64,000 nt of DNA, taken from Aldrovandia affinis (Eukaryota > Chordata > Actinopteri > Notacanthiformes > Halosauridae). Shown one piece after another: positions 23,885 through 62,489 of the stretch (position 1 is the first letter of the stretch; each line of letters begins with the position of its first letter). The notes under the pieces are model-generated. The model saw nothing but the letters and a program-made list of their open reading frames with translations, had not been told where the DNA came from and made no database searches. The position numbers and the translations under genes are program-made. The stretch lies in assembly GCA_029706075.1 (NCBI GenBank), contig JAINUG010000140.1, positions 536,001-600,000 of the forward strand, read 5' to 3'.

Positions 23885-24263
23885 AGTCGAGTGTGAAAGG
23901 TTCCGGCCAGAACACTTATTCCGAACACAATCCATATTTCCTCGCGCTCGTTCCGTGTTCCACACGCGCCAGCAGCGAGCCGAGGACCGCGACTTCACGT
24001 CTGCTCGGGCCGACCGGATCCTCGTTTCGTACCGCTTTTTTTGGTGAATCTGGCCAGTTCGGTGTTTTTATATAAGAAAAAGGGGGCACAATACAGGCCT
24101 TCTGTATATCTATTTCTATCCATAAAGAGAGAGAGAGAGAGAGAGAGAGGAACTGCTATCGAAACACAATCGTTCATTTCCTTATTAAACGGGAGCTGCG
24201 TTTGTTTTTTGGGGGGGGAGAGAGAGCGTAAATAACCGCTGAATATCTCCAGTCTGCGTGGAC
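23885..24263 (+). promoter_or_regulatory. hdgfl3: hdgfl3 promoter and 5' UTR region
   Basis: A CpG-richer block immediately upstream of the hdgfl3 start, containing a (GA)n run at 24127-24149. Extent inferred from base composition only. Confidence 0.45.
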
Positions 24264-27200
24264 ATGGCTCGCCCCCGACCACGGGAGTACAAATGTGGAG
24301 ATCTTGTTTTCGCGAAAATGAAGGGATACCCGCACTGGCCGGCCAGGGTGAGTAGGCTGCTGCGGTGTCGGCGGGCCGCGGAGACGGGAGGCGGGAGGCG
24401 GGGTCGCCGGAGACAATGCGACCGGCAGCAGGAGGACGGGGTGATGCCGTTACGCTTCCCCCGTAGTTCCTGCATCTTAAATGTTTATAACGCAGAAACA
24501 CAGCGGCTCCCCGGCCTTCAGTAGGCCATTAGGATGTACACTAGGCTGTGATGGGTACTGTTCAATATGCGCCACACTCATGTTTTAAATGCGGGCGGAT
24601 GGACTCGGTCGGTCGGTACTGTAAGCAGTCTCGGAGCCATGTCCATGTTTTGTTGCAGAGTGAAAGTAAAGCGCCACTACTTCGCTAACGTCTCTCAGTC
24701 TGACACGCTTTTCGCTTTTATGTGAAGCGGGAGGGAGGGAGAAAGGGACGTGAAATGTGAAATGGACGTTTTTAACTCCGTTTTGTTGAAAGAGAGACCA
24801 TCATGTGGTAGCGGCTGGCGTTTTCCGGCTGCGGATAATGTTCAGGGGAGAGCGATGCGCTAGCCTGCCGGTGGGGTGAGATTTGACGCTCCTTCTTACG
24901 TGGGTGAAAAGAAAGCCTTTTTAACCACAGCTGCGCTGGCGAGACCTCTGTGTGGACAATGTCACAGCGGCCTGCCTACTTATCACTAATAACACACTAA
25001 TTTATCTGCTATTTCAGCGTTTGTTTTTAGTCAAGGGACGATCTCAGTTTAGCAGCTAAACCACCATTCACGGAAGGAAGTGTCAACATCGCCTTTGCCT
25101 TGATGGCACTTTCAAGTAACTAGCGTTCGTCTTCGCAACAGCGAGAGGTTAAAAAGTAACCAAACGCAAGGTTTTCACGCACACACCGCACGGAACCGAC
25201 CAACATTATTACGGTGACAAGAAGAGAGCACAAGCGATACTAATATTTAATATTCAACGTTAACGTTACCTTCGTAAGAAACAGATGATCAAAGTATACA
25301 GTGCGGTTGATTTAAAACGTCGATAGCTACGTGTAACCATGGAAACCGTTGCGTCCAGGTCACCGTGGGTGAAATCAGACGCGACTTTGGTACATGCATA
25401 CGTCATCAAACCATAATTCATAATTCATATAACTTCCAGTTTTTATCACCGTGTGGTATGTTTGGATCCTTAACCTTAGATAACGGGGCTCATTATTAGT
25501 ATTAATTTTAAGTCATGACTACAGAACTGTATCTGACCTTGATATTGGTAAAAAAAATATTCTGAATGAAGACAGTATTTGAAAATAATGAGAATAGTTA
25601 TTTTTTGGAAGTACTGTAGCCTAACAACATGTCAGGCACAAACAAGTCAACCACAAGTCTGGTTTATAAACATCTTTGTACATCCAAATATGGAAACGTA
25701 TCCCTGCCAAACCTCAGAAGAATGTGCACATTGGGAAAGGGTTTGCAGTACCAAGTTTGAGATTTCATTTCACAATCTGTGTTTAGGCTGCACAGTGGTG
25801 CAGTGGATAGCACTGTCGCTGCACAGCCAGAAGGTCCTGGGTTTGAATCCCAGCCAGGGCCTTTCTGTGTGGAGTTTGCATGTTCTCCCTGTGTCCGCAT
25901 GGGTTTCCTCTGGGTACTCCGGTTTCCTCCCACAGTCCAAAGACATGCACGCTAGGCTAATTGGAGAGTCTAAATTGCCCTGTAGGTATGAGTGTGTGAG
26001 TGAATGGTGTATGTGTCCTGCGATGGATTGCGATCGACCTGTCCAGGGTGTATTCCTGCCTCTCGCCCAATGTATGCTGGGATAGGCTCCAGCCCCCCCC
26101 CTCGACTCTGACCAGGAATAAGCAGATTAGATAATGAATGAATGAATCTGAATTTACAGAATGTGCATTTTAAAACATGTTGTTGTCTATAGCACATGTG
26201 TGTATATATATATATATATATATAGAATCACTCAAACTGCATAATGTAGTATTCAATAACATAAATCCCAGGCATATTTATTGAAAGAGTTGATATGTTT
26301 AAATAAATGGTGGCCACAAAGTGACGTTTTCATGACCATAGATATATCTGTGTCAATGCAACATTTATTTCAGCCTTAAAAAAACTGTTACTGTACTATA
26401 TACACTGGTGAGTCACAATAAAAAAATAAAGAAAGTGTAAAAACAGATGGACATTTATGTAAAAAGCACATGCACATTGGATTATGTGCTTATTTTATAC
26501 AGTTTGAGAGAGGAGCAGTTTTAATCACACTTGTTTGACCGGGCGGTGCAAGGAAAGCAGCATTTCATTTATTTATTTTTGTATGAGTTTATTTGTAAGG
26601 GACAAGCACAGAGAGCACTGACAGCCGCAGAAGCAGTGCCCGATGCACTGGACATGTGTATGTAGCCGAAGCTCATTTCCAACACCAGTCCCTCGATGGG
26701 CATTGATAGTTCAATCAATCAATAAAATAATAAAATTACATTGTTACAGTTTAAAATCAGTGCATATAATGACCAAAAACAACAACAGCAACAACAACCA
26801 TACATGACACGACAAAAACAAACAAACAAACAAAGAGAACATGAGCTCAAATACAGTAATGATTAGTTGGTGTCATGATTACGATTTTCGCCAAGCTTTA
26901 GCCAGGACTTGATTGTTGTGGAAAACATTTTAAAATCTTTGATCTGTTTTGAACTGCCAGGTAGAGAATTCCAGAGTGCATCGATTAACCCTCGCCTGAC
27001 TTTACGGTCATGGGCAGTGAGTCACAGTGCTGTACCAGCACAGTGGAGGCTGAGGCTAAAAGACGTTACACAGGAAGCCGTTTCCGTGCTGATTGCTGAT
27101 CAGACTGATTGACTGCGCTCCAGATTAGCCGGTGAAAGAGCCGTGATCTTTTCCGCATTAGCACACTGACCTGTCGCTCTGACTGCATCGGCACACCCCC

Positions 27201-36789: not shown

Positions 36790-37051
36790 TAGATGAAACA
36801 CTGCCCCCAGCGGTCGACATATTACCCGTTTCGCCAGACTAGAACCAGAGCGGAAGTGACGTCACGAGTGCGCATAGTAAACAGAGACCATGACAGAGGA
36901 AAGGGAACGTCTCCTTTTGTAGAAGGAAAAAAAACATGTTTCCGCGGCTCTCCTTTTAAACAACACACATCGTTGACGCTTTTCGCAAAACTATTCCACT
37001 AAAAAAAAAGAAAAGCTGCTCACGTTTGGATCGGGCGCGCGGACAGTTATT
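36790..37051 (+). promoter_or_regulatory. btbd1: btbd1 promoter and 5' UTR region
   Basis: Unique sequence with rising CpG content before the ATG at 37052, including a gaagtgacgtcacgag block (CRE-like tgacgtca at about 36855). Confidence 0.5.
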
Positions 37052-42978
<5,927 letters not shown>

Positions 42979-44166: not shown

Positions 44167-44266
44167 TTAGTTGGGGGTATCTGGGTGTGTGGGGTAGTTG
44201 TTGAGCAGCTGGACGGTCTGAGCGTGGTTGCTCCTGACTGCCTCCTGCAGGGCCGTGTTTCCCCAC
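44167..44266 (-). CDS. glsl: glutaminase-like last exon (second ankyrin repeat, stop)
   Basis: Encodes RWGNTALQEAVRSNHAQTVQ and a short tail ending NYPTHPDTPN, then TAA at 44167-44169. The GLS C-terminal extension beyond the ankyrin repeat is absent. Confidence 0.85.
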
Positions 44267-45700
44267 CTGCCGAGAGATTCAGCCGTTTATCTGCTGTGTC
44301 TTTAACACACAGGGCTCAACACACGGTTCTGCTGGTTCATCCTTCTCATCGCTTCCTATTCTTCAGACATCTCTATCTTACATTGCGGTCATAGCACAAT
44401 AGTTGTTCCCAAATAAAACATTTAAAAAAAAAAATCTTAATATGACTGAAATGGTAACCTGCTTGGCTATTTTCCCCACCATACACCAAATCAGGTGTCC
44501 AAACAAATATGTGATGTGTGTAGTCATTTTACTATAATTTTTTAAAATGTATTTTCAAATTTTTTCCCGTTTTATTCTCCCAATTTGGTAGGCAATTACA
44601 CTCCCTATTTCTTGCAATTTACCCTCCCCACGAGTCTGCCGCTTATCCTCGGAGGCAGGCCGGGTTTTCCCGTACAGGGACGCCTTACGTGCTTCTCGGC
44701 GAACCCGTGCCGGCTCACCCTCCACCCTCCACCCTCCCCCTCCCTCTGGGGTGGACAGCCAATCACTGTCCTGGTCATACAGTGCATAAACTCAACCTGT
44801 GAATCTGGCGTTGACTGGCAGTCACATGACCCGGTTCTGTACCTGTCATTGGCTGAGGGTTGCGCCCCTGCGTTTTCAATCAGAAACCTGACGACCTCCA
44901 CGTGACCTTCGGACGCAGCGACGTGCAGAGCGGACCTTCCGTCGTAGTCGAGGGCGTTCACGTCCGCTCCCGACAGGAAGTACCTGTGGAGATCAGTGGG
45001 GATTGGTCACGATTCATAAATCCCACAATGCACTGCTTCACATCCCTGGTCCTGAGAAGCCTGTTGATTTGATGTTGGAAGGGTATTTGTTTTTATAGAA
45101 AGATAGGCGTAAAGACTGGTCTTGGTCTTATTAAAAATGTATTTGCTCCAGGCAATCTTAACAAATTAATAAACACAACAAATTAATCTTAAGATGAATG
45201 TGACCCTGAACATGTAACCCTGAATGTATTCTGTGTTGCTAGGTTACGTGGGGGCCACAAACTCACAAAAACAACTTGAGAAAGTACTTCTGTCTGTCCA
45301 TCGACACAAATCCAACCTGCTGTAAATACACTCCTCTGTACACACACACACACAAACCACACACAAACACAAACCAAACACACACACAAACCACACACAA
45401 ACCAAACACACACACATACACACACACAGTCCTTACACAGGTGAGAGAGACACACACACACACACACAAACAAACACGTCACAGCAGAAACAAGGAATGT
45501 GTAACCACTGTATGTGGGTTGTCAAGGAGACAGGCATCTGCAAAGTGTTATTAAATAGTGAGCATGAGAGCGTGCTGAAACGTGTGTGTGTGAGTGTGTC
45601 TTACCTGTGTAAGGACTGTGTGTGTGTGTGTGAGAGAGTGTGTGTGTGTGCGTCTTACCTGTGTAAGGACAGTGTGTGTTTGTGTCTCACCTGCGTAAGG

Positions 45701-45734
<34 letters not shown>

Positions 45735-45746
45735 TCACCTGCGTAA

Positions 45747-45779
<33 letters not shown>

Positions 45780-45794
45780 CTCGCCTGCGTAAGG

Positions 45795-45844
<50 letters not shown>

Positions 45845-47040
45845 TCACCTGCGTAAGGACTGCACATCCCCTCTGTAGGCTGCTAGTAAGATGTTCATTA
45901 TCTGATAGCCCTGCGGAAAGGGATGAGGCACAGTCACACGCTTTAGAGCTGCAGAGGTTGCAGGTTCAGGTCCAGTGCTGTCGGATGGCACTCCTGAGCA
46001 AAGGCACTTGATCCGGAATTACTTCATTAAATATCATTGGTATGAATGTGTACAGTGTTACAGAGCATAAGCACTATAAACAATGCCATGTATTCATACA
46101 TCCACCAGGCAAATTACAATTTTAACGGTCAACATTAAACCAGGGTGTGAACATTAAATATGATTGTTTCTGTTTTTCTCCCAATTTGGTAGACAATTAC
46201 ACCCTCTATTTTTTTGGATTTACCCTCCCCACACGAGTCCACTTTCATACATGTACAGTTTTGCACATGAACAGAAGAATATATTTTACCTTACATACAA
46301 CACATACAATGTGTTCTACAATTAAAGCATAGCGTATATGCAATAGTAACTACATTTTGATATATGTGTACAAAATAATATCAAATGTTGAATTTAATAT
46401 TCTTCTTAATGGGCCTCCCGGGTGGTGTAGCCGTTACAACGTTTGACGCTGGCTACTGCGACCGGGGTTCCATTCCATATGGAACTCGCTGCGTATAGGA
46501 GTGGCTCTGTGCGCATACCGGAGTTACGGTGACGGCTTGACGGGTTCCGGCTCGGAGGAGGCGGTGCCCAGCCACATGTCAGTGCGCAAACTGATCCTGA
46601 ACTGATCCTACCATGTATTAATGCACATCTTGTAAGTCGCTCTGGATAAGAGCGTCTGCTAAATGCTTAAAATGTCAAATGTATCAGGACTACGGCAGTG
46701 AACTCACAATACGAGGGAGTGGGATAATTGACATGAAAAATAGAGGGTCTAATTGGATACTAAAAATGGGGAGGAAAAACAGCAGAAAGAGAAAGTAGAA
46801 AAAAATAAAATAATATTAATAATTTTGGATTGAATATTGTTCTGAATGAGTGGTGAGGGGCTCTCACCTCCGACTCAGACTTCCACTGCCGGTACGCCAC
46901 CACCTGGCGGAACGGGGTCCGGACATCGAAGCTGTGCAGCTGGAACGTCGACACCAACTCCTTCAAAAACAAGCAAAAGATCGGTTTCCATAAATGCAGA
47001 TTTGTCTAAAGATAAGCCATAGGAAACGCAGTGTAAAGCA

Positions 47041-47082
<42 letters not shown>

Positions 47083-50000
47083 CTTCACGTCACAGATCCA
47101 TCAGATCAGACAGGTGTCATCACCACTGCTCTCATGTTTAATACTGCATTGTTCTGTGCATACTGGTTCTGTGTGGCTCAGTAGGTAGAGCGTGGTTCTG
47201 TGTGTCTCAGTAGTTAGAGCGTGGTTCTGTGTGTCTCAGTAGTTAGAGCGTGGTTCTGTGTGGCTCAGTAGGGGGGGCTCGGTTGTGGGTTCAATTCCCA
47301 TTGTATGAATTCACTACTGTAAGTCACTTTGGATAAAAGCATCTGCTAAATGGTGTATAGTATAGTATAGTAATTGATGACTGCCCAAATAAAAATATAA
47401 TCATCTAACCTTTCCTTCCCAGTGTTACAGGTACGGTGTGCAGCTGCCAACGATTATGTCTATTACTGTATTACTGCACTGATCTCTTGCGCGGACTATG
47501 ACTAATCTTACCATGTATTAATGCACATCTTGTAAGTTGCTCTCAATAAGAGCGTCTGCTAAATGTCTAAATGTCTAAATGTAAATGTAGATCCCTGGGT
47601 CAGGGGTCAGGCAGCGTGTGAGACGGGCGGTTCTGGCAGCACCTCACAGAAGTGCACGGACTTCCAGGAGTTCCCAAAGGCGTCCAGCTCTGGGGCCCAG
47701 CACATCAGTCCCAGGACCCCGGGAACCACCATCAGCAAGCCACCTGATTGGCTGGACACGGCCGGCACCGAGGTCTGGGGAGCATAGTGAGAACAACAGC
47801 GTTCAGAGCTCTGGTTTGCCCTTCACTTCCTATGAAGCAAACACATATACTGCCTTATAGCTGTATTTATAGAGCCTTATGATGCACTATAAACACTGCT
47901 ATAAGCACTCATAACAACTCATAGGCAGAGTTGTGACCAAGTCACTGTTATGCAAGTCATAAGCAAGTCTCAAGTCCTGAAGGGTTAAGTCTCAAGTAAA
48001 GTCCCAAGTCACCATGTTCAAGTCAAGTCACAAGTCACAAGTCACAAATTTCAGCGGTCAAGTCCTCAAGTCTAAACGGTGGCGTGTTTTAGACCAACAT
48101 TTAACACAATTTTTAAATTTTTAAAAACTAGTCTCTCGAGTCATCCAGCTCAAGTCCAAGTCTATTCCCAAGTCATAGACATGCAGGTCTTAGTCAAGTC
48201 TCAAGTGCTTTTATTCTTTGCAAGTCAAGTCTGAAGTCATCAAAATTGTGACTCGAGTCGCACTCGAGTCTAAGTCATGTGACTTGAGTCCACAACTCTG
48301 CTCATAGGTAATTAAAAACAGCCTTTATAATGCTATATATATCATTGCTATGACATAAGACCTATAAGACTATAAGACCAAAGGGAATAACGCATTATAC
48401 CCCTGCTTGCAAGCAAACTGTATGTTACTGTATGTGAGTAGCAGCCACTTGGAGGTATCTTTTGACAACCATTTCAACTGTCTACCTAGTTTCATGGCCT
48501 GGGTTATATGTGCCTCTGATCACTTTCTTTGCAGTTACCAAAAGGGCTTTTGAGTGTGCTGCACCCTCCACATGGAACATCTTATAGTTTGTCATAGCAA
48601 TGATTTATATAACATTATAAATACTGTTATAATTACCTATGAGCAGAGTTGCGGACTCCAGTCACATGACTTGGACTCGAGTGGCCGGCAGTGTAGTATA
48701 ATGGTTAGGGAGCTGGGCTTGTAACTCAGAGGTTGCTGGTTCAATTCCCAGGTGGGGGCACTGCCATTGTACCCTTATGCAAGGTACTTAACCTGAATTC
48801 CTTCAGTAAAAATATCCAACTGTATAAATAGATGTCAAAGAAATAGAAATGTCAATTGTGTAAGTCGCTCTGGATAAGAGCGTCTGCTAAATGCCTAAAA
48901 TGTAAATGTACATGTGGAACGGGCTACAGAGTGAGTCGCATGTCATGGAGCCAGTCTCCTTAAGGGTGTTTAAAATGAATTAAAGGAATTAGAGGCTGGA
49001 GCGATAAGCTGTAAATGTTTCTGCTAAATGTTGCCTCTATGCTGACTATTTAGTCATCCTTGTAACATGTCTGTAAATGTTGTAATGGAAACCTATTTCT
49101 TATTTGTAATGTTGTAATTTGTCATTTTTGTAAATTGTTTTATAACTGTGTCTGTAACTTAATGCTGCTGCCTGACTTGGCCAGGACCCCCTTGTAAAAG
49201 AGATTGTTGATCTCAACGGGGATATTCCTGCTTAAATAATGGTTAAATTAAAAAAATAAAAATGTATGTAAATTAATATCTGCATCCCTCTTTGATATTC
49301 ATCTGGCCTGGTGTGTAAATGAAAGCGTCGGTTTTTGGCCTCACCTTGAAATGGAAGATTCTGGAGTAGTCCTTCATCCCCGCCACCTGCATCATGGACA
49401 GCATGTTCCGAGTGGACGAAGGGCACAGGACCTGGTCACCTGACAAGGGGCACAGCCCCCCATTGGCTAGCGTGGCAGCCATGGCAGCGCCTGATTCGCA
49501 CGTCACCTCTGTGGAAGAACACTGACACAAAGATCCGCCCCGGCAACGGCAATCTCAGTCTCCAGGACTTGAACCTGAGCGGAAATGTGTGCTTTGAACT
49601 AGGGCTGTGACGGTATGACATTGTCACGGTACTACTCAATATTACGGTTTTGGGTCTATCACAGTATCAGTTTTTAATTTTTTTAAGTATCACAAAGTTT
49701 ACAACTCGATCTGTTTATTGTATGGCTCTTTGCAGATTTATATACCATTTTAATTGAAAAATAAAACCAAAAATGCAGCTGAATATAGTTCACTCCTCGT
49801 AAAAGTATGTTAAAATCAATAACCACATGTGTATACAGCACAATGCATAGGCCTACTCTCAATAATCGAAAATGATAATAATCAGAAACAGGAACTGTCA
49901 AATGAGTGGCACTAGATGCACTTAGCTTTCCTTTTTAAGGCAGATATTTTGTAAGAAGACCAGCATGTTAAAATGTTTTAGTAGGGTAACGGTTTAAATC

Positions 50001-53000
50001 TTTTTTTAAACCATTCATACCATCATACCGGCATACCATCACACCCCTAGTTTGAATTGGAGAGGGCAGTACACAAGCACATATCTGAAGAATTTTGAAA
50101 GATTCTGTGTGGAGGAATGATCAAAGAACAAATATTTTCATAGAATTTAACTTTTTTTTAGCGTGCAATATAACTCATAACTATACCAGTTATGAGTTAT
50201 ATTGTCACAAAAAAAAAAAAGTTAAATTTATTTTATACAGCCTTTTGTGCTCATTTTCCATCAAGGGTGCCAATAATTCTGGACCGTACAGAGATTACAG
50301 AGATTACAAAGCATGAAACAAACACATGTCACCACGGTAACAAAATAAATGAGGAGATAGCCCGTAGTTAGGATATATTTGTATATATTATACATTTAAT
50401 ACATTTATAAATTTGTCTCAGATTTTCTCCCATTTTTTCCCAAGTTAGTAGCCAATTACACCCTCTCTTTTTCAAGTCAATTCCCCCCTCGTATTGTGAG
50501 CTCTCTGCCGTAGCCCTGTGACCGGCAGTGACAAAGGCGATGTACCGCCTCCTCCGAGATGGCACTCGCCAAGGCGTCGACTGTAACTCCGGTACACGGA
50601 GCCACTCCTATATGCAGCAAGCTCATATCGGCTTCCCTCCCCCCTCTCTGGGGCGGATAGCCAATCACCGCCCCCTTGTGGCACTCCCGGCTAGAGCCAA
50701 CACTGGCGCGACTGGTGGAACCGAACCCCGGTCGCGGTGGCCAGCGTCAAACATTGATATTGTATATGTTATATGTGTTATTATATGTATATGACATATT
50801 TACCTGCAGCAGTAAATCCAGAGTAATATTGATGTCCACAGACTCAGGAAAACACTATCAGATAAAACTGGAGTTAAAGTTTGAAAAAACCATCTGCAAC
50901 TATTCAATAATGAGTCATATATAAAAATAATAATCATAATAATTTCAAATAAGAAAATACCCCATGTTATTCGTTCATACATTCATACATTCTCTAACCC
51001 GCTTATTCCTGGTCAGGGTTGGGGGGCGGGGGCTGGAGCCTATTCCAGCATGCATTGGGTGAGAGGCAGGAATACACCCTGGACAGGTCGCCAATCCATC
51101 GCAGGGCACATACACCATTCACTCACACACTCATACCTACGGGCAATTTAGACTCTCCAATTAGCCCCGGAAACTGGAGTACCCGGAGGAAACCCACGCG
51201 GACACGGGGAGAACATGCAAACTCCACACAGAAAAGCCCCGGCCAGGAATCAAACCCGGGACCACCCCAACAACACTGAAATATTGCCCTAAAGGTATAA
51301 TGAACACACAGCACAGATAAGTTTGTGATTTAACGTACTTTCTTTTCTTGAAGGTAGAAGGACAGGGCGTGGAGACCAACACTGTCTTTCCTCAGGGTCT
51401 GGAGGCTGAAAACACACGTCTTAATTTATTTTATTTATAGTTTCTCCTTTTTCTCCCAAATTGGAAGTCAATTATACCCTCTATTTATCTCAATTCACCC
51501 TCCCCCACGAGTCCGCCGCCCATCCTCTGGGTAACGAGACAATTTTTCCGGGCTGGTCGAGCCGCCTCCTCCGAAACGGAACCCGACCACGGGCGCCCTT
51601 CCTGCACCTCGACAAACTCGTGTCGGCTCACCCTCCCCCCCTTCCCCTGGGGCGGACAGCCAAACGCCACCCCCAATCGGGGCTGATGACTAAGGCCAGT
51701 CTGGTAGAAATGGGTTTCGAACTGCGTCCCTGACAGGCAGCCACACTCGTATTGGACCAGCCAAAATACAGTGCGTTATCCAGAGCGACTTACACAGTTT
51801 ACATTTCTTTACATACAATCCATTTATCCAGCTGGATATTTTACTTAAGCAATTCAGGTTAAGTACCTTGCTTAAGGGTACAACGGCAGTGCTCCCAACT
51901 GGGAATTGAACCTACAACCTCTGAGTTACAAGCCCAGCTCCCTAACCATTACACTACACTGCCAGCCATAAGACCGCTAGACCGCTACGCTATCTGCCGC
52001 CTCCAGACACGTCAGTAAACGTTTCACACATCCTCGGTCATTCCACAAACACAAAGAGAAGATTCTCACTTGTTTTAGGCATGAGGGATTACTCTAAACC
52101 CACCTCGTGCAGTTTAAGTTTGCATGCTCCTTGTTGCACAGCTTTCAAAGGTATTCAGAACCTGCAATGAAAAGGACTTCAGAAGTTGCACCATCTTTTG
52201 CCTTCACTAAAAACCTTGTTTTATTGTATGCCACAAGCTTAATACACAGAGTGGTGCTTCTGGCTGGGCTTTCAGGATGTGATTGGTGTTTTTTAATTAT
52301 TTTATTTATTTATTTGTTTCAGATTTTTTCCCGTTTTTCTCCCAATTTGGTAGACAATTACACCCTCTATTTATTTAGATTTACCCTCTCCACACGGGTC
52401 CGCCACTCGTCTCTACGAGGCAAGCCAATTCTCATAGGGCAGCGAACTCCGCTTCCTTTGAGATGGAATTCAAACGTTCTGGAGACTCACTTACATGCTT
52501 CACGGCGGACCCGAGCGGCTCACCCTCCCCCCCCCCCTCCCCCTGGGGCGGACAGCCAAACGCCGACCCCAATCAGGGCTGACGACCAGGGCCGGTCTGG
52601 TAGAACTACACTGCCAGCCATAAGACCACTAGACCGCTACGCTATCTGCCGCCTCCAGACACGTCAGTAAACGTTTCACACATCCTCGGTCATTCCACAA
52701 ACACAAAGAGAAGATTCTCACTTGTTTTAGGCATGAGGGATTACTCTAAACCCACCTCGTGCAGTTTAAGTTTGCATGCTCCTTGTTGCACAGCTTTCGA
52801 AAGGTATTCAGAACCTGCAATGAAAAGGACTTCAGAAGTTGCACCATCTTTTGCCTTCACTAAAAACCTTGTTTTATTGTATGCCACAAGCTTAATACAC
52901 AGAGTGGTGCTTCTGGCTGGGCTTTCAGGATGTGATTGGTGTTTTTAATTATTTTATTTATTTATTTGTTTCAGATTTTTTTCCCGTTTTTCTCCCAATT

Positions 53001-56000
53001 TGGTAGACAATTACACCCTCTATTTATTTAGATTTACCCTCTCCACACGGGTCCGCCACTCGTCTCTGAGGCAAGCCAATTCTCATAGGGCAGCGAACTC
53101 CGCTTCCTTTGAGATGGAATTCAAGCGTTCTGGAGACTCACTTACATGCTTCACGGCGGACCCGAGCGGCTCACCCTCCCCCTCCCCTGGGGCGGACAGC
53201 CAAACGCCACCCCAATCGGGGCTGATGACTAAGGCCAGTCTGGTAGAAATGGGTTTCGAACTGCGTCCCTGACAGGCAGCCACACTCGTATTGGACCAGC
53301 CAAAATACAGTGCGTTATCCAGAGCGACTTACACAGTTTACATTTCTTTACATACAATCCATTTATCCAGCTGGATATTTTACTTAAGCAATTCAGGTTA
53401 AGTACCTTGCTTAAGGGTACAACGGCAGTGCTCCCAACTGGGAATTGAACCTACAACCTCTGAGTTACAAGCCCAGCTCCCTAACCATTACACTACACTG
53501 CCAGCCATAAGACCACTAGACCGCTACGCTATCTGCCGCCTCCAGACACGTCAGTAAACGTTTCACACATCCTCGGTCATTCCACAAACACAAAGAGAAG
53601 ATTCTCACTTGTTTTAGGCATGAGGGATTACTCTAAACCCACCTCGTGCAGTTTAAGTTTGCATGCTCCTTGTTGCACAGCTTTCGAAAGGTATTCAGAA
53701 CCTGCAATGAAAAGGACTTCAGAAGTTGCACCATCTTTTGCCTTCACTAAAAACCTTGTTTTATTGTATGCCACAAGCTTAATACACAGAGTGGTGCTTC
53801 TGGCTGGGCTTTCAGGATGTGATTGGTGTTTTTTAATTATTTTATTTATTTATTTGTTTCAGATTTTTTCCCGTTTTTCTCCCAATTTGGTAGACAATTA
53901 CACCCTCTATTTATTTAGATTTACCCTCTCCACACGGGTCCGCCACTCGTCTCTGAGGCAAGCCAATTCTCATAGGGCAGCGAACTCCGCTTCCTTTGAG
54001 ATGGAATTCAAACGTTCTGGAGACTCACTTACATGCTTCACGGCGGACCCGAGCGGCTCACCCTCCCCCTCCCCTGGGGCGGACAGCCAAACGCCACCCC
54101 AATCATGGCTTCAACTTGACGTGCATCAGAAAGTTATTGCGATAATGCTAATGGAAAACAGGTTAGTTCGAACCTATGATGCGCTAGACTAATTTGTTTG
54201 CTAGAGGTGGATTAGAGTAGATCCCAATTCTATATAGTGCAATGGAAAACACTTGTAGCGATATAAGGGCGGATGTTTCAGTTGCGGAGCTTGTCAAAGG
54301 CATTGAAACAAGCCGCTCTTCAGCAGAATTTCGTTATTTGCGTGAGTCAGGTAGCCTAACGACTACGACTTTAACTAGCTTCAAAGCTTAGATAAAAATG
54401 TTTCAAACTAGGAGTAATTGGAAAAGAGGCGATGCTGCTGTTTCTGAGTTTGTTTGATAGTGGAAACGCACAGCTGGCACCTTCATGCACAACACAGTTA
54501 ATACACAATTTGTGGTTTAGCTAGAAATCGTTAGATGAATTTATCATTAAGTCTAATAAGTTCGATTTGTATGAGTGAATAGCACTGTTTCATAACGTCA
54601 CTCATTAGCGAACATAATGATTTCAGTGCAATTCAGTGCTTCAGCAGGGCATTATTAGCCTACGTCAGGTTTATGCACTACCACTATGTTCTATTAATGG
54701 AAAATGGTTCAGAGGAACCGAACTAGCGCAACGAAGTTAATTGTTAATTAACCCGGTACCTACGGTACTGTAGAAAAACGACTACCGTCAGAATTTGGGC
54801 ATCGACTTGGTACCTGGGTGATGACTTTTCAAGTGTCTGATTAGGTTGGTCGTTCGAACGTTTTCGAGGTTGTTCCTCCGCGGCTTATTTTCGATTGACA
54901 TGTATGACAAACTGCAAGCTTTAAGTCGTCTTCACTGACTGTGAAAAACGCCCATACTAAGGACATGTTGAGGCGTTTTCAGCGCTGCGCTCATCTGATC
55001 TGTTTGCATTGGCTCACGGGTGCGCGCACGTCACGTGAAAAGAGGGGGCGAGGAGCCAACCGGCGCACAGAATCGGCTATGTGGAGTGATCGGGATCAAG
55101 TCACCGATTGAGGCCGATCAGCTGAAAATCGGCCATTTCCGGTCAGAGGCCGATCGATCGGTGCATCTCTATATATAACACCTTTATTTTGTATTCCCGT
55201 AGCTCAGTTGGTAGAGCATGGCACTGGCGATGCCAAGATTGTGGGTTTAATCCCACGGGACTACATGTCCGTCATTTGGATGGAATGGTCAAAACCGAGG
55301 TCCTGACTCTCTGTGGTCATAAAAGATCCCCTGGTGCTTTTCAAAAAGACTAGGGTGTTAACCCAGTGTCCTGGCCAAATTCCCAACAAAGACAATATAT
55401 ATATACATGGAGTATACACTATGGCTGCCATCGTGTTCGCAAGACCAAGTCACTGTTATGCAAGTCATAAGTAAGTCTCAATTCTTAACCTCTTAACCAA
55501 GTCTCAAGTAAGTCCCAAGTCATGAAGGGTTAAGTCTCAAGTAAAGTCACAAGTCACAAATTTCAAGTCCTCAAGTCACACTCAAAATTGTTATGTTTCT
55601 TAGTGTCTGTTCTGTTGTTTTTTGTACTTTGTTTATTTTTCATTATTTATCATTCATTATTCTTTATTCAGTATTTCGTTTTCATCATTCTGGCACGTTC
55701 TGGTCCCCGTCTGTCATCGTTCCTGTTATTTCGAGATCCACTCCTTGTCTTGTCATGCACTTCGGGAAGCTCTACATTTAGGGTTTTTCCGTCTTAGCTT
55801 ATTATCTCGTTTTCTTCCTTCTTACTTTCTATATTTCAATTTGTATATATTAGTTAGATGTATATAGTACTAACCAACTAATCTACTAACATTAGGGATT
55901 TAGATTAAGTTACTAACACTACTAATCACTAATTATCTCACGCTTCTTACTATCGCTGTCATTCTTTCTCGTTATCCTATCCCTGTTAGCTTTTCACTTT

Positions 56001-59000
56001 TCTTTTCATTCGCACGCAGATTCTCTCTTTGCGTTCCTCCCCTTCTAACTATGCACGTGTCTGCCTGATCTCCCAGGTCGTTTATTGTCTATGTGTTTGT
56101 ATTATTCCCAGTCTGTGTCTTGCATTTCCCCTCGTTATTGGATTAACGATTCCCAATGTTTACACCTGTGTCCCTACCTCTCTCTCCTCCCAGTCACACC
56201 TGATTCCTATTGTGTTGCCCTTTCCTGTTTGTATATTAGTTCCGTGTTTATGTTCCTTCCCCGTCAGAACATGGATCTTCATTCCCTGAGCCAATTCCTA
56301 GTAAGCCAGAGTCTGTAGCTTGTCCTGAGACACCCCTTCTGTTATCACTCCGAGCCTGCCTGTCGATTTTGTTTGTTTGCCTATCTGCTTCCCGGTTTTG
56401 ACTTTTTGGATAGTTTTTTGTGACTTCTCTTTGCCTTGTGATTTTGTACCTTCGCTACCCTGACTACTGGTTTTGACCCCTGCCTGAATTAAACGTTCCT
56501 TTTTGCCTGATCCTGGTCTGCGTCTGGGTCCTTATCCCGTACCTCACAAAAATAAGTAAAAACAACAAAACAAATCTCGAGTCATCCAGCTCCAAGTCAA
56601 AATCTAGTCCCCAGTCATAGACATGCAAGTCTAAGTCAAGTCTCAAGTACTTCTATTTTTTTGCAAGTCAAGTCTGAAGTCACCAAAATTGTGACTCGAG
56701 TCCACAACTCTGCTATAAAACCAAACACAATGCTCTTGGAAGGATAGCGTTACGCATTTTACGTAAAATGCTTTTCTCAGATGTTGCACAGCACTTGAGA
56801 CATCGTGACACAGCATCAACCCTCTGAGCAATATCCCTGCACAACTGCTTATGAACGAGTTATACAGGTGTTGTGCTATGCTATGTGCTATGTGCGATGA
56901 ATGAATGAATAAATGAATGAATGAATGAATGAATGAATGAATGAATGAATGAATGAATGAATGAATGAATGAATGAATGAATGAATGAATGAATGAATGA
57001 ATGAATGAATTAATTAATTAATTAATATTGGATTTATATATTGCTTTTTTCCCAAGGAACTCAAAGCACTTTACAATGATAGGGGAACTCACCTCCACCA
57101 GCACCAATGTGCAGCACCCACCTGGGTGAACGCGACAGCAGCCATAGTGCGCCAGTACAAGCTCACTACACATCAGATACACAGTGGAGAGGTCAGGAGG
57201 GAGGGAGTGAATGAATTAATTGTCTTGGTTGGGCCAGGACACTGACTCTTTTGTCAAAAAGCACCATGGGATCTTTTATGACCACAGAGAGTCAGGACCT
57301 CAGTTTTTACCTTCCCATCAAACCCACAACCTTGGCATTGCCAGTGCCGTGCTCTACCAACTGAGCTACGAGAACTACAAGGTAACAGACATAATTAATG
57401 AAGGCTTTCGGGGATATACATAATGATGTGAACTGAGGGGGTCATGAGGACATCGGTGAGCTGTGCTCTTGGCTCTCGCTCTGTCACCTTGCTTGGTGAG
57501 GGTGAAGGCCGACTCATACTTGGAGAACTCTTCCACGCCCACGTATCTGTGCACGTAGTCAGCGCCCAGCTGGTCCACAGCGATGCCGTAGATGAGCGGC
57601 CAGGAGATCTCTCTCAGAACACAGGGCTCTGCGTAATCTCCCACCGAGAGCCTGGCACCACACACACAAACATGGCACCACAACATTGTGTGTTTCAGGC
57701 CCCCACACACAAACACAGCACCACAACATTGTGTGTTTCAGTCCCCCACACACACACACACACACACACAAACACAGCACCACAACATTGTGTGTTTCAG
57801 TCCCTCACACAGACAAACACAGCACCACAACATCACGTCTCTGTTCCCCACACACACACAAACACAGCACCACAACATTGTCTGTTTCAGGCCCCCACAC
57901 ACAAACACAGCACCACAACATTGTGTGTTTCAGTCCCCCACACACACACAAACACAGCACCACAACATTGTGTATTTCAGTCCCTCACACAAACACAGCA
58001 CCACAACATCACGTCTCTGTTCCCCACACACACACAAACACAGCACCACAACATTGTCTGTTTCAGGCCCCCACACACAAACACAGCACCACAACATTGT
58101 GTGTTTCAGTCCCCCACACACACACAAACACAGCACCACAACATTGTGTATTTCAGTCCCTCACACAAACACAGCACTACAACATCACGTTTCTGTTCCC
58201 CACACACACAAACACAGCACCACAGCATTGTGTGTTTCTGTTCCACACACACACAAACACAGCACCACAACATTGTGTGTTTCATTCCCACACACACAAA
58301 CACAGCACCACAACATTGTGTGTTTCAGTCCCACACAGACAAACACAGCACCACAACATTGTGTGTTTCAGTCCTCCACACACACAAACACAGCACCACA
58401 ACATTGTGTGTTTCAGTCCTCCACACACACAAACACAGCACCACAACATTGTGTGTTTCAGTCCCTCACACAGACAAACACAGCACCACAACATTGTGTG
58501 TTAGTTCCCCACACAGAATCAGAACAGTGTGTCGTTGTGTCCCTCCAAGCTGAACCCACACGCAGCCCCACACAGAATGTAGCTGTTGGCTGTGCAGCTG
58601 GGATTTTGAGTATTTGAGTATTCCGTTTCTGGCTGTGAAAGCAAGAGTATTAGAAACTCTGGGTGTGAAAGTGTGAGTTTTGAAAGGGTGAAAGTGTAAT
58701 GTGAAAGTGTGAATGTGTACCTCTGTCCATCCACGGTGCAGACAGACACTCCCCATTTTCCACTGTCTGCATTCACTGGAGCCTCCTGCTGCACCACACA
58801 AAACACACAGTACAGTGACTCAAACCCACTTAAACACAGTACTGAGTCAAACACACTTAAACACAGAGTCAAAGCCATTTAAACACAGCGCCAAACCCAT
58901 TTAAACACAGTACTGTGCCTCAAACACTGCATGCTATTAACACTGTCAAAATAATTTAAAGCACTGTGTCTTTCTGTCCTCAACACAGACTAGGAAACAC

Positions 59001-62000
59001 ATTTGGTTGGCTAACTTCAATTTTGAATACCCGTCCAGTTATTCACTGAAAACACAACTCACGTCATCTTGACTGTGTGAAGATACGAGGCAAGCTAATT
59101 CTCAGAGGGCAGCGAACTCTGCTCCCTTCGAGACAGAATTCACGCACCCACGTTCTTGAAACTCCCTTACATGCTTCACAGCGGACCTGAGCCGGCTCAC
59201 CCTCCCCCTCCCCCTGGGGCGGACAGCCAAACGCCGCCCCCAATCGGGGCTGACAACCTGGGCCAGTCTGGTAGAGACAGGTTTGGAACCGCGTCCCTGA
59301 CAGGTAGCGCACACTCGTATTGGACCAGCCAAGATACGGTGCGTTAGACCGCTACGCTATCCACCGCCCCTGATTTGTTTCTAACACACGGGACACAACA
59401 CAAGGTTCTGCTCTTTCCAGTCGCCTCTGTGCCTCCTGCCCATGTTGCTGTTCGGACATCTTTATCTAATATTGCGGTCATAGCACAATACCGCCGCCCT
59501 CCATCTCGCTCTTTTTACTGTTTTTGGGAAGAAAGGCCAAAATGGCAGCTGGATTTTCAGTCGCGTGAGTCAGTGGGGGATCAGTGGCGGCTGGAGAAAG
59601 CCAAACCTGGCAGCCCATGATACTCACCTTGACAGGAGCGAGCTGTTTGCCCTTCAGGAAGAGCTTCTGCGTTTCTTCGGTGAAGGTGGAAAAGTCGGGA
59701 ATGACAAACCTCCCTTGCAGCGACTTCAGGATGAAGGACACCACGCCGGTCACACACCTGTGGTCAAACCAACAGCCCGTCAGTCACCAGCACTCTGTGA
59801 GGCCTAGGCCTCCTGTATACATATATATATACATGCCATCTAGCAGACGCTTTTATCCAAAGTGGCTTACACTAGTGAATGCATACATTTTTCAGAGTAT
59901 GTGGTCCCAATGGGAATCAAACCCACAACCTAAGCGTTGTCAACACCATACCAATACTTACTGAGTCACACAGAACCACGCTCTACCTACTGAGCCACAC
60001 AGAACCATGCTCTACCTACTGAGCCACACAGAACCACACTCTACCTACTGAGTCACACAGAACCACGCTCTACCTACTGAGCCACACAGAACCATGCTCT
60101 ACCTACTGAGCCACACAGAACCACACTCTACCTACTGAGCCACACAGAACCACGCTCTACCTACTGAGCCACACAGAACCACGCTCTACCTACTGAGCCA
60201 CACAGAACCACGCTCTACCTACTGAGCCACACAGAACCACACTCTACCTACTGAGCCACACAGAACCACGCTCTACCTACTGAGCCACACAGAACCACGC
60301 TCTACCTACTGAGCCACACAGAACCATGCTCTACCTACTGAGCCACACAGAACCATGCTCTACCTACTGAGCCACACAGAACCATGCTCTACCTACTGAG
60401 CCACACAGAACCACACTACACCTACTGAGCCACACAGAACTACACTCTACCTACTGAGCCACACAGAACCACGCTGTACCTACTGAGACACAGAACCCCA
60501 GCCTCTCTCTGCTGTAGAACATCCTTTTCCACGTAAAATAGACAGGCTTGCTGAACATCTCTTTCCTGTCTGAACTCTCTCTCTCGATCTCTCTCTCTGC
60601 ACCATGTGGAGAGAGAACTACACGCAGTGGAGGCACAGAGTTTGCATTCTGAAAATCTGCATTGTGTGAAAAATACGTTGAAGATAAAATATGATTGTAG
60701 AACTTTCACACACATTTTCAATGGCCTTGATTGATCAAGAGACTGGCTGTAAGAAAAACCTGCATACACAGTGGGTCCCCAGGACCAGCATACACAGTCG
60801 GTCCCCAGGACCAGCATACACAGTGGGTCCCCAGGACCTGCATACATAGTGGGTCCCCAGGACCTGCATACATAGTGGGTCCCCAGGACCTGCATACACA
60901 GTGGGTCCCCAGGACCTGTATACGTAGTGGGTCCCCAGGACCTGCATACATAGTGAGTCCCCAGGACCTGCATACATAGTGGGTCCCCAGGACCTGCATA
61001 CATAGTGGGTCCCCAGGACCTGCATACACAGTGGGTCCCCAGGACCTGCATACACAGTGGGTCCCCAGGACCTGTATATGTAGTGGGTCCCCAGGACCTG
61101 CATACATAGTGAGTCCCCAGGACCTGTATGCGTAGTGGGTCCCAAGGTCCCACTCTAAGGCCAGGTCCACACTAATGCGGATACATTTAAAAACGTGTTA
61201 TTCAGGATTGTGAAGAATAGTGTTATTCTGGATTGTGTAGAATAGTGTTGTATTAAGTTGTTTGGGGTATATTTCCCCTCCAGATCAGCTGACCTGTGGA
61301 ATGTGTTTCTGTCCACAGTTCCGTCAGCTTCCTGGAGCTTCTTCATCAGTAAGTAGCAGTCCTTAATCCTGGGGTCCGACTTCTGTATCCCAGAGCTCCA
61401 CACTGCCTACAGCAGAGAGACAGAGAGACAGAGAGACAGAGAGAGACAGAGACAGAGAGAGAGGGACAGAGAGAGAGAGAGAGAGACAGAGGGACAGAGA
61501 GACAGAGAGATAGAGAGATAGAGAGACAGAGAGACAGAGAGAGAGGGACAGAGAGACAGCGACAGAGACAGAGGGACAGAGGGACGTTATCAAACCTGCA
61601 GTTGCTGCACACCAGGGCTGCCAGGTTTGGCTTTTTCACCCAAACTGGCTCAATTGTCTCTGATTTTGCACTGACTTTTTGGGATTTATTAATCACATCA
61701 AAATCAAATAAAACAAAGGTATTTTGAATCAAACAGCCATGTCCCAAGCAGAAAAAGTGTGTATGATTTATATGTGGCTGGAAGTGGATAATTTGTTTGA
61801 AGAAACCAGACGGTGGCTTTCGGTGAAGGGCCCTCATTTTGGGTTTTATCTTGGCTGTGTAACGTTGTGATTTTGGCTTCTTTTGGCTGACAGATGATGT
61901 GTGTATGTATGAGTGTGTGTGTGTGTGTGTGTGTGTGAGTGTGTATGTGTGTATGTGCGTTCGTGCATGCGTGTATTGGTCCAGGTTCATTATACTAATG

Positions 62001-62233
62001 ATTTATTAAACTACATCGTATTTTCCCAATATATTGGACTGTATTTTGTATGTGCTCCCTGCCTATTTTCCTCATTGCCCTAATGAAGTGTTCACTCCCC
62101 CAGAGCCTGCTGCAAGGACCGTTACTTTCATTAGAGAAAATCAGCACTGACAAAATGTGAAAGTCTGACAGTACCTCGAAAAAGTGGGTCATGTTGACTC
62201 TCCCCTCCGAAGCAAAACTCTCGAAGAGCACAT
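44167..62233 (-). CDS. glsl: Glutaminase-like protein with lost catalytic residues (5' end not found)
   Basis: GLS/GLS2 hydrolyse glutamine in mitochondria with a Ser-x-x-Lys pair in a beta-lactamase-like fold. Fifteen exons (listed separately) join in consistent phase into 495 codons: N-terminal helical part (SDPRIKDC, GRFVIPDF), catalytic-domain core (KWGVSVCTVDGQR, YGIAVDQLGADYVHRYVG, EVTCESGAAMAATLANGGLC, GLLMVVPGVLGLMCWAPELD) and ankyrin repeats (YDGRSALHVAASEGHVEVVR). Yet, by human GLS numbering, Ser286 is Glu, Lys289 Trp, Asn335 Leu, Glu381 Leu, Asn388 Leu, Tyr414 Leu, Tyr466 Lys, Val484 Gln, and the Tyr249 segment is deleted. It is therefore probably a pseudoenzyme kept for fold or assembly. 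The symbol reflects a fish glutaminase-like name and is tentative. No targeting peptide seen, as the first exon(s) are missing. Confidence 0.88.
44535..44775 (-). repeat. Family B SINE fragment
   Basis: Truncated copy in the last intron of the glutaminase-like gene. Confidence 0.7.
44843..44983 (-). CDS. glsl: glutaminase-like exon: ankyrin repeat
   Basis: 141 bp, cacag/ to /gtacag. Contains VNALDYDGRSALHVAASEGH and VEVVRFLIENAG, nearly identical to the GLS ankyrin consensus. Confidence 0.92.
45427..45870. repeat. glsl: TG microsatellite carrying repeated copies of a splice-donor boundary
   Basis: On the minus strand the exon end/donor block cagtccttacgcaggtgag (true donor at 45849/45848) recurs about five more times at 45600-45800, separated by TG runs. 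Two distal copies read cttacacaggtaag, a better donor consensus, and one has a gc donor. A further copy at 45427-45447 is in the opposite orientation. Confidence 0.88.
45849..45910 (-). CDS. glsl: glutaminase-like exon: GYQIMNILLAAYRGDVQSLR
   Basis: 62 bp; corresponds to the GLS segment VINLLFAAYTGDVSALRR that leads into the ankyrin repeats. Its donor boundary is repeated downstream in the intron. Confidence 0.9.
46410..46800 (+). repeat. Family A SINE with internal E-type tail insertion
   Basis: Family A head and tail are interrupted at about 46580-46690 by a block with gtaagtcgctctggataag, which also occurs at 47500-47590. Confidence 0.75.
46868..46960 (-). CDS. glsl: glutaminase-like exon: ELVSTFQLHSFDVR segment
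   Basis: 93 bp in phase 0. Aligns with the GLS region around DLVSLCNFHNYDNL, with a divergent second half (VVAYRQWKSESE). Confidence 0.8.
47163..47366 (+). repeat. tRNA SINE with 4 A-box units (family C)
   Basis: Four 29-bp units, then a degenerate junction, B box and tail ending atctgctaaatgg. Confidence 0.8.
47643..47774 (-). CDS. glsl: glutaminase-like exon: GLLMVVPGVLGLMCWAPELD
   Basis: 132 bp, phase 0. The glutaminase lid-proximal motif SGVAGG is SSQSGG here, so Val484 becomes Gln. The hydrophobic core and FGNS(V/W)K(G/S)(I/V)HFC are conserved. Confidence 0.92.
47930..48300. repeat. caagtc-rich dispersed element
   Basis: Irregular caagtc/aagtctcaagt repeats flanked by gcagagttgtg and its reverse complement (cacaactctgc), so the unit has inverted ends. 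A second copy at 55440-56715 is split by an LTR. Confidence 0.75.
48684..48910 (+). repeat. Family E SINE
   Basis: Full-length-looking copy inserted next to a fragment of the caagtc element (48642-48683). Confidence 0.8.
49345..49521 (-). CDS. glsl: glutaminase-like exon: EVTCES...GMKDYS
   Basis: 177 bp, phase 0. Begins CSSTEVTCESGAAMAATLAN. The GLS motif GMYDFSG is GMKDYSR, replacing the general-acid/base tyrosine (Tyr466) by Lys. Confidence 0.92.
50405..50750 (-). repeat. Family A SINE
   Basis: Minus-strand copy ending about 50 bp before the 51-bp exon. Confidence 0.8.
50804..50854 (-). CDS. glsl: glutaminase-like 51-bp exon CFPESVDINITLDLLLQ
   Basis: Matches GLS CFPEGTDMVGILDFYFQ position for position; Tyr414 is Leu. 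Flanked by gatag and gtaaat. Confidence 0.82.
50975..51285 (-). repeat. Family F SINE
   Basis: Reverse copy of 25788-26148. Confidence 0.85.
51339..51405 (-). CDS. glsl: glutaminase-like exon LQTLRKDSVGLHALSFYLQE
   Basis: 67 bp; aligns without gaps to GLS [22 protein letters not shown]. Glu381 and Asn388 both become Leu. Lies between a family B and a family F SINE. Confidence 0.85.
51430..51965 (-). repeat. Family B SINE followed by family E SINE
   Basis: B at 51430-51780 is joined directly to E at 51770-51965; the same B-E junction recurs at about 53310, part of the tandem duplication. Confidence 0.8.
52104..52161 (-). pseudogene. glsl: Triplicated 59-bp exon, copy 1 (1-bp deletion)
   Basis: 58 bp. 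Same sequence and splice sites as copies 2 and 3, but one g is missing after gctttc, which shifts the frame after about five codons. Nearest copy to the next exon (51405). Confidence 0.75.
52756..52814 (-). CDS. glsl: Triplicated 59-bp exon, copy 2 (intact)
   Basis: Encodes VLNTFRKLCNKEHANLNCT plus two bases, matching GLS VMQFLNKMAGNEYVGFSNAT in length and phase. Sites attgcag/ and /gtgggt. Confidence 0.7.
53643..53701 (-). CDS. glsl: Triplicated 59-bp exon, copy 3 (intact)
   Basis: Identical in sequence to copy 2. As 59 is not a multiple of three, only one copy can be used per transcript without a frameshift. Confidence 0.7.
54120..55170. mobile_element. Probable non-autonomous hAT-type element
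   Basis: Its right end carries repeated cgatc-rich sequence (gaggccgatcgatcggtgca) of the kind seen at fish hAT ends. No transposase and no partner copy in the window, so the left boundary is uncertain. Confidence 0.4.
55192..55405 (+). repeat. Family D SINE
   Basis: Head cccgtagctcagttggtaga with tRNA-like B box gtgggtttaatccc; body agaccaaagatcccctggtg-like. Looks like a tRNA gene but lacks a cloverleaf. Confidence 0.75.
55440..56715. mobile_element. caagtc element split by a solo LTR (55588-56548)
   Basis: Left part 55440-55587 and right part 56560-56715 match the uninterrupted copy at 47930-48300. The intervening block is homologous to 4385-5235 and ends in the cctgatcctggtctgcgtct type of sequence. 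Confidence 0.7.
56763..56836 (-). CDS. glsl: glutaminase-like exon ILLRGLMLCHDVSSAVQHLR
   Basis: 74 bp; phase fits both neighbours exactly. Corresponds to the GLS region VNAGAIVVTSLIK...EKFDY but is very divergent, with Asn335 replaced by Leu and about five residues missing before it. The donor lies in a palindrome gcattttacgtaaaatgc. Least certain exon on sequence alone. Confidence 0.55.
56889..57020. repeat. (GAAT)n microsatellite
   Basis: About 30 tandem tetranucleotides at the end of a family D SINE. Confidence 0.95.
57005..57370 (-). repeat. Family D SINE (long composite copy)
   Basis: Collinear with 12536-12955. Head on the minus strand ctcgtagctcagttggtaga. Confidence 0.75.
57488..57651 (-). 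CDS. glsl: glutaminase-like exon with altered catalytic Ser-x-x-Lys
   Basis: 164 bp. Encodes LSVGDYAEPCVLREISWPLI then YGIAVDQLGADYVHRYVG. It aligns gap-free with GLS ...[28 protein letters not shown], so Ser286 is Glu and Lys289 is Trp. The acceptor is next to a CA/TG minisatellite. Confidence 0.92.
57660..58515. repeat. glsl: Minisatellite of about 45-bp units in glutaminase-like intron
   Basis: About 18 copies of acagcaccacaacattgtgt-containing units joined by short CA runs, starting right at the acceptor of exon 57488-57651. Long reading frames on both strands are artefacts of this array. Confidence 0.92.
58721..58788 (-). CDS. glsl: glutaminase-like exon KWGVSVCTVDGQ
   Basis: 68 bp (or 65 if the second cag is the acceptor). 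Contains the invariant WGVSVCTVDGQR; the preceding YIPQL block with Tyr249 is absent. Confidence 0.88.
59085..59375 (-). repeat. Family B SINE
   Basis: Minus-strand copy in the glutaminase-like intron. Confidence 0.8.
59628..59757 (-). CDS. glsl: glutaminase-like exon GRFVIPDFSTFTEE
   Basis: 130 bp, aligned gap-free to GLS (KKCVQSNIVLLTQAFRRKFV...). Ends KGKQLAPVK/gtgagt. Confidence 0.9.
59829..60492 (-). repeat. tRNA SINE with about 19 tandem A-box units (family C, longest)
   Basis: Tail and B-box segment at 59833-59945, then about 19 nearly identical 29-bp units to 60490. Confidence 0.9.
60670..61145. repeat. 26-bp minisatellite inside a hAT-MITE relic
   Basis: About 15 units of gggtccccaggacctgcata-type (26 bp). 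The left flank (gattgatcaagagactggct) matches the right part of the 14084-14992 element, so the array grew within a copy of that element. Confidence 0.85.
61294..61406 (-). CDS. glsl: glutaminase-like exon SSGIQKSDPRIKDCYLLMKK
   Basis: 113 bp. Matches GLS STGLRTSDPRLKECMDML and ends VDRNTFHR across the junction. Confidence 0.88.
61409..61590. repeat. (GACA)/(GA)n microsatellite
   Basis: Purine-rich array next to the exon at 61406. It serves as the reverse-strand pyrimidine-rich tract before that exon's acceptor. Confidence 0.9.
62175..62233 (-). CDS. glsl: glutaminase-like exon DVLFESFASEGRVNMTHFFE
   Basis: 59 bp, matching GLS EDLLFYTIAEGQ-KIPVHKF. First recognisable exon; preceding exons lie upstream (above 62233) or outside the window. 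Confidence 0.78.
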
Positions 62234-62489
62234 CTGCAGCCCTGTGTGCCAGCGACAATCACGGATTATCGAGGAAACAAAAAACGACATTTCTGAATTT
62301 CTCATATTTTCATCGACTATATCACCAAGATACAAGGCTTTCATCTTTTGCTTTATTTCAATTTTTAATGTAAAATTTTTTATTTGTTTTGTCTTTAGAC
62401 AAATTTGAGTTCAGCCCAGGCAAACCACATCTTGTTCAGTCTCAAAGTGTTGAATGTAAAATTAAACCCATTTTCCAATGGTAGGAGTA

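Follow-up and report, generated by a model that had tools for sequence, protein, structure and literature searches.

A glutaminase paralogue of Aldrovandia affinis that has lost its substrate pocket: a probable pseudoenzyme whose central exons may be damaged or unresolved in the assembly

Can a glutaminase that has given up its substrate pocket have been kept by selection, and what is the state of such a gene today? The question is raised by a window of 64,000 nucleotides (nt) from the halosaurid fish Aldrovandia affinis (GenBank assembly GCA_029706075.1, contig JAINUG010000140.1, positions 536,001 to 600,000 of the forward strand; coordinates below are those of the window unless stated otherwise). 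Its minus strand carries a spliced gene of the glutaminase family at 62241–44167, with 14 exons in the order and phase of GLS (the window gene). The original prediction, made from the letters alone, had described a paralogue of glutaminase in which the pocket is gone and other constrained positions are kept, and this description is supported: none of the eight testable pocket residues is kept, 41 of 66 other near-invariant positions are, and the ratio of non-synonymous to synonymous change (dN/dS, omega) is 0.225. We consider it probable that this is an old glutaminase paralogue turned pseudoenzyme, with a long non-catalytic history under selection. The substrate pocket, the nucleophile, the lid and the activation loop would have been given up, and purifying selection would have continued to act on the ankyrin tail, on the N-terminal EF-hand-like domain and on part of the glutaminase fold. 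The middle of the gene may be damaged or unresolved in the assembly, and the locus may hold a live pseudoenzyme with unrecognized exons, a gene that broke only recently, or an error of the assembly.

The testable pocket residues (human GLS numbering) are spread over several exons. S286E and K289W lie at 57488..57651 (164 nt), together with the motif DYVHRYVG and a diverged activation loop; this exon leaves in phase 1. E381L and N388L are found at 51339..51405 (67 nt), Y414L at 50804..50854 (51 nt, where D412 and Q416 are kept), Y466K at 49345..49521 (177 nt, with EVTCES) and V484Q at 47643..47774 (132 nt, with MCW). All five exons have the length of their gls counterparts, and all seven substitutions are those that had been named beforehand. 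Y249 is lost as well, being V or E depending on the alignment; its segment, earlier described as deleted, proved to be shortened, as the exon for GLS 246–272 with the lid and WGVSVCTVDGQR (58721..58785) has 65 nt compared to 80 nt in gls. The five motifs listed at the outset (WGVSVCTVDGQR, DYVHRYVG, EVTCES, MCW and the ankyrin motif) are present in the exon translations. A further claim, Asn335 to Leu, could not be upheld: the exon carrying N335 was found neither by profile nor by splice-site search, and N335 thus falls in a missing exon.

Of 20 other glutaminases (the genome's own gls and gls2 and 18 bacterial homologues), all carry the nine pocket residues, save one that lacks V484. The bacterial proteins were selected for carrying one of six gls peptides unchanged, a set that includes the S286–K289 region, and are therefore not an unbiased sample. 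Both gls and gls2 retain all nine residues and, as far as their sequences indicate, could supply the enzyme activity. The loss of the pocket (0/8) differs from the retention of positions invariant in three vertebrate proteins (114/262, p = 0.023; with gaps excluded 114/255, p = 0.011), and likewise at stricter thresholds (0/7 against 26/46 positions invariant in 21 proteins, p = 0.010; 0/8 against the near-invariant set, p = 0.0009). These three comparisons are cuts of one data set at different conservation thresholds and not independent, with p ranging from 0.0009 to 0.023. The pocket loss thus appears to exceed the general divergence of the window gene. Many further lost positions presumably border the pocket. 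The set that marks a glutaminase as an enzyme, Ser-x-x-Lys with the pocket N, E, N, Y and Y, is absent, with N335 outside this comparison. From what is known of the family, catalysis by the window protein seems very unlikely, because the nucleophile, Lys289 and the substrate contacts are lost.

Selection on the coding sequence was estimated with a three-sequence codon model over 466 codons, which gave the omega cited above for the window gene, 0.052 for gls and 0.062 for gls2. Omega on this lineage had been proposed as a check, and a value of 1 is rejected by 12.0 log-likelihood units; fixing omega at 0.5 or 0.1 is worse by 3.8 and 1.7 units, respectively. The value itself is rough owing to saturation at synonymous sites, with 4 to 7 neutral changes in each codon. 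No premature stop occurs across 472 codons and no frameshift within the 14 exons counted, and none of 20000 base-shuffled exon sets (13 of the 14 exons) stayed open. Computed without the missing exons, the upper bound for a neutral phase is approximately 1.3–2.1% divergence under assumed indel rates, or approximately 5–6% from stops alone. For the history of the branch we thus find what defines a pseudoenzyme, loss of catalytic residues with coding selection kept. Of the earlier proposal of a pseudoenzyme with an intact frame, the pocket loss under selection is supported; the intact frame is not supported, given two missing exons and a triplicated one.

The assignment to the family is clear. 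The Pfam domains EF-hand_14, Glutaminase and Ank all score above cut-off in the window protein, with Glutaminase (PF04960) reaching 133.8 and 40.7 bits for its two halves (cut-off 27), and their order is that of the kidney- and liver-type animal glutaminases (EF-hand-like, glutaminase, ankyrin). A single-sequence blastp comparison with human GLS gives 39% identity over 502 columns (E = 8e-128), of which 30 are filler X standing for the missing exons; identity to gls and gls2 is 38% and 36% over 502 columns. Domain order and exon phases are thus shared with GLS (KGA), GLS2, gls and gls2, whereas the absence of all testable pocket residues, the short lid and the diverged activation loop set the window gene apart from these four, and one intron fewer and two exons not found set it apart from gls and gls2. 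A search of the whole genome (1.22 gigabases) with 214 residues of the window protein, at E up to 0.1, returned only the window locus, gls and gls2.

In a tree with 18 bacterial outgroups the window gene joins human GLS, gls and gls2 with a support of 98/100, on an end branch of 2.51 changes per column. The approximately unbiased test gives p = 0.47 for a group of GLS, gls and gls2 that excludes the window gene; placing the window gene with GLS and gls gives 0.29, and placing it with only gls2 gives 0.046. As far as these sequences go, the tree does not settle where it branches with respect to GLS and GLS2. Zebrafish Glsl is similar in this respect: it is reported to be an extra predicted paralogue that falls outside both the GLS and the GLS2 cluster, with expression in the swim bladder (PMC6197330). 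The window gene is probably the teleost gene glsl to which zebrafish Glsl belongs. In the accessible portions of two other papers, glsl appears only within an expression table (PMC9368350) and GLSL denotes liver-type glutaminase (PMC13142944). A literature search over titles and the beginnings of abstracts found no report of an inactive glsl or a dead-pocket glutaminase. Pseudoenzyme paralogues of metabolic enzymes do occur in other folds, as in lengsin. Arabidopsis PDX1.2 is likewise a paralogue of a metabolic enzyme that lacks catalysis and exists beside an active one; it has another fold and is reported to act as a regulator of its parent pathway, whereas such a role of the window gene would be hypothetical.

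The gene model was obtained by spliced alignment to human GLS and refined with the exon structure of gls and gls2 from the same genome. The count of 14 comprises 13 exons and one 59-nt exon that exists in tandem copies, whereas the original prediction of 495 codons over fifteen exons, all consistent in phase, was not confirmed. Three borders (57488, 46868 and 45910) were placed afterwards from family phase and splice score, and extra pieces of the first pass, upstream of 62241 and inside the exon gap, were discarded as spurious. At the 5′ side, spliced alignment gives an exon reaching GLS 161 at the start of the EF-hand-like domain (62175..62241; 67 nt compared to 97 in gls and 100 in gls2, left border less sure), one for GLS 162–202 (61294..61406; 113 nt, 122 in gls) and one for GLS 202–245 (59628..59757; 130 nt, as in gls). 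At the 3′ side lie the exons for GLS 520–550 (46868..46960; 93 nt, as in gls, donor from the splice-site search) and GLS 551–571 (45849..45910; 62 nt, as in gls, its acceptor set by eye to the family length, 9 nt off the first alignment, score 5.3), an ankyrin exon (44843..44983; 141 nt) and the last exon (44167..44266; 100 nt to the stop, with TAA at its end). The order of lengths is thus 67, 113, 130, 65, 164, 59, 67, 51, 177, 132, 93, 62, 141 and 100 nt, compared to 97, 122, 130, 80, 164, 59, 33, 59, 67, 51, 177, 132, 93, 62, 77 and 64 nt before the last exon of gls. Since the 141-nt ankyrin exon equals the 77- and 64-nt family exons fused, one intron has been lost. Counting it in this way, and with two borders fixed with the family length in view, 10 of 14 exons have the family length; the other three differences in coding length from gls (−30, −9 and −15) are all multiples of three. 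No poly-A-like hexamer was seen among 967 positions checked downstream of the stop. By eye, introns of the gene contain long minisatellite arrays at 57660–58500, 59990–60480 and 60760–61140.

The middle of the gene is interrupted by a gap in the frame between 57488 and 53701, where the 164-nt exon ends in phase 1 and the next one, of 59 nt (GLS 358–376), begins in phase 0. In gls and gls2 this place is taken by exons of 59 nt (with N335) and 33 nt, encoding GLS 328–357. A profile scan for the two gave best scores of 14.0 and 13.0, under the means of permuted-profile nulls (17.0 and 15.4), and enumeration of splice-site pairs with both sites strong gave zero candidates. With lower cut-offs the whole interval yielded 10 and 4 candidates, none of them acceptable; the best (57121–57093, 29 nt, and 54073–54033, 41 nt) were rejected, both lying in repeats. 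In the non-repeated stretches, 10 candidates fit the first missing exon in phase and 9 fit the second, with best summed splice scores of −1.0 and 0.6, and the former sits inside a mobile element. The better scores of the search with lower cut-offs (9.9 and 7.9) belong to candidates in repeats. For the activation-loop exon, a donor in phase 0 scores −2.4. The interval 53702–57660 is 51% repeat by comparison within the sequence analysed, which missed the mobile element at 54105..55171 (approximately 1.07 kilobases, strand not assigned); this element has the activation-loop exon on one side and the tandem copies of the 59-nt exon on the other. This element occurs in at least 39 other places at 99–100% identity (best 40 of 16295 first-look candidates) and looks like a member of a recently active family; one of its reading frames resembles what we take to be a BED-finger hAT transposase.

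Next to the element, a tandem array (51671–54104, spacing 652 and 887 bases) has triplicated one exon of the gene. Copies 3 (53643..53701) and 2 (52756..52814) of the 59-nt exon are identical, and copy 1 (52104..52161) is reduced to 58 nt by a 1-nt deletion; a 261-base piece around the exon is present in three copies here and nowhere else in the genome. Its profile score is weak (16.7, null mean 14.1, maximum 24), and the exon was accepted because of its length, phase, splice sites and place. In alignments of the tandem copies that stop short of the mobile-element ends, where the copies diverge more, mismatches and gap bases number 1 and 8 over 598 aligned bases, 1 and 5 over 485, 1 and 3 over 768, and zero over 300. 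As the copies differ so little, the triplication must be recent.

Several of these findings weigh against a pseudoenzyme that is still maintained, or against the long selected history itself. The exons for GLS 328–357 were not found by either search, and splicing a single 59-nt copy results in a frameshift with a stop soon after the next exon; with two exons not found and one tripled, present-day protein production is unproven. Exon 1 with the start codon was not found in a 40-kilobase flank that includes 12,500 N (three start-exon candidates, none convincing), and the 10,000 bases directly after the window (contig positions 600001–610000) are all N, so that exon 1 cannot be sought there. With manually entered splice matrices, acceptors score lower in the window gene (mean 1.97) than in gls (3.36) and gls2 (3.61; p = 0.013), and donors do not differ (p = 0.35). 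Spliced alignment bars frameshifts and penalizes stops, and open exons were therefore partly sought by the method. Fewer than half of the invariant positions outside the pocket are kept (114/262), so the constraint on the fold is loose. Filament contacts of glutaminase have been assigned to F355, F373, N375, F378, Q379, D412 and Q416 in the available parts of two studies (PMC10912226; PMC10770349). In the window protein Q379, D412 and Q416 are kept, F373L, N375C and F378L are changed and F355 falls in a missing exon; judged from these residues, the change of 3 of 6 testable contacts would weigh on a role in oligomers.

Explanations for the present state (an assembly fault, recent death or splicing of two copies) are compatible with a pseudoenzyme history. 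It is a real possibility, if short of a probable one, that the gene is intact and that the exon gap is a fault of assembly or detection, the two exons being too diverged or lost in a repeat-rich interval. The pocket segments beside the gap are only 16–17% identical to human GLS, and the missing exons could therefore be equally unrecognizable; tandem arrays would also be typical places of assembly failure. Against this, the non-repeat candidates score poorly and the better ones lie in repeats, as described above.

We regard it as doubtful, though worth serious attention, that a former pseudoenzyme gene has just died, as a unitary pseudogene or a broken allele, having lost the exons for GLS 328–357 with the insertion of the mobile element and a rearrangement of which the exon array is the scar. 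The missing exons and the frame gap, the young element adjoining it, the nearly identical and hence recent tandem copies (one already with its deletion) and the weaker acceptors all fit such an event. The absence of any stop or frameshift in the 14 exons counted speaks against it, and any neutral phase must have been short.

Survival by unusual splicing is very unlikely. The two exon copies 53701–53643 and 52814–52756 can be spliced in two frames (1 + 59 + 59 leaves phase 2, a chance closure), which leaves 492 sense codons open, and a jump over the whole stretch from 58785–58721 to 51405–51339 gives an open product too. The copies are very young, so the gene must earlier have worked without the two-copy form. 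We infer that the earlier reader had used this two-copy model (13 + 2 = 15 exons; 492 compared to 495 codons), and the uninterrupted frame then reported is not supported, closing only if two identical young copies are spliced, one of them in a shifted frame. That a new catalytic or ligand-binding activity has arisen on the old fold seems likewise very unlikely: definite residues (E286, W289 and K466) have replaced lost ones in open exons, but they form no residue set of known activity that we recognized, and the lid and activation loop have diverged.

The old paralogue turned pseudoenzyme could act through its kept surfaces (the ankyrin tail and the stretch Y394–E397–K398) as a scaffold or adaptor that is folded and oligomeric, and might assemble together with gls or gls2. 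As the most likely use of the conserved parts we tentatively propose an independent ankyrin-tail scaffold or a subunit of mixed assemblies. Glutaminase activity is coupled to filament assembly, as stated in the accessible part of PMC10912226. In the phosphate site of the window protein, Y394 and K398 are kept, R317 is replaced by K as in the fish gls2, and K320 and R387 are lost. Capping of filaments by the window protein, one of the roles first suggested, is possible but gains no support from the filament contacts and the phosphate site. More speculatively, ray-finned fish might keep glsl as a catalytically dead protein, either a subunit that enters or adjusts assemblies of gls/gls2 or a scaffold built on its ankyrin repeats (the swim bladder being one possible site), under a name that misstates its function, with the exon triplication now remodelling the gene in this species. 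A natural glutaminase with a dead pocket and conserved outer domains would make it possible to ask directly whether glutaminase assemblies are regulated by non-catalytic subunits, and the function implied by the name "glutaminase-like" would need correction. If the gene is instead dying, it would provide a datable example of the loss of a pseudoenzyme.

Elsewhere in the genome, a second gls copy was observed (G000:C1777:935264-944870, plus strand; loci L034, L045, L054 and L055), with only exons from approximately GLS 519 onward among the matches listed. It covers the linker and the ankyrin tail at 63–96% identity (best 84 of 93 candidates). No catalytic exon was seen in L034, which reaches 1.5 kilobases upstream and contains no N. 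This locus could be glsb, the front half of which is unassembled, or else a truncated gene copy.

Within the window, open frames are present on the plus strand at 9280–12203, 24243–24521 and 36977–40784. By their motifs we take the plus-strand neighbours to be bnc1, hdgfl3 and btbd1, which are presumably the known neighbours on human 15q25.

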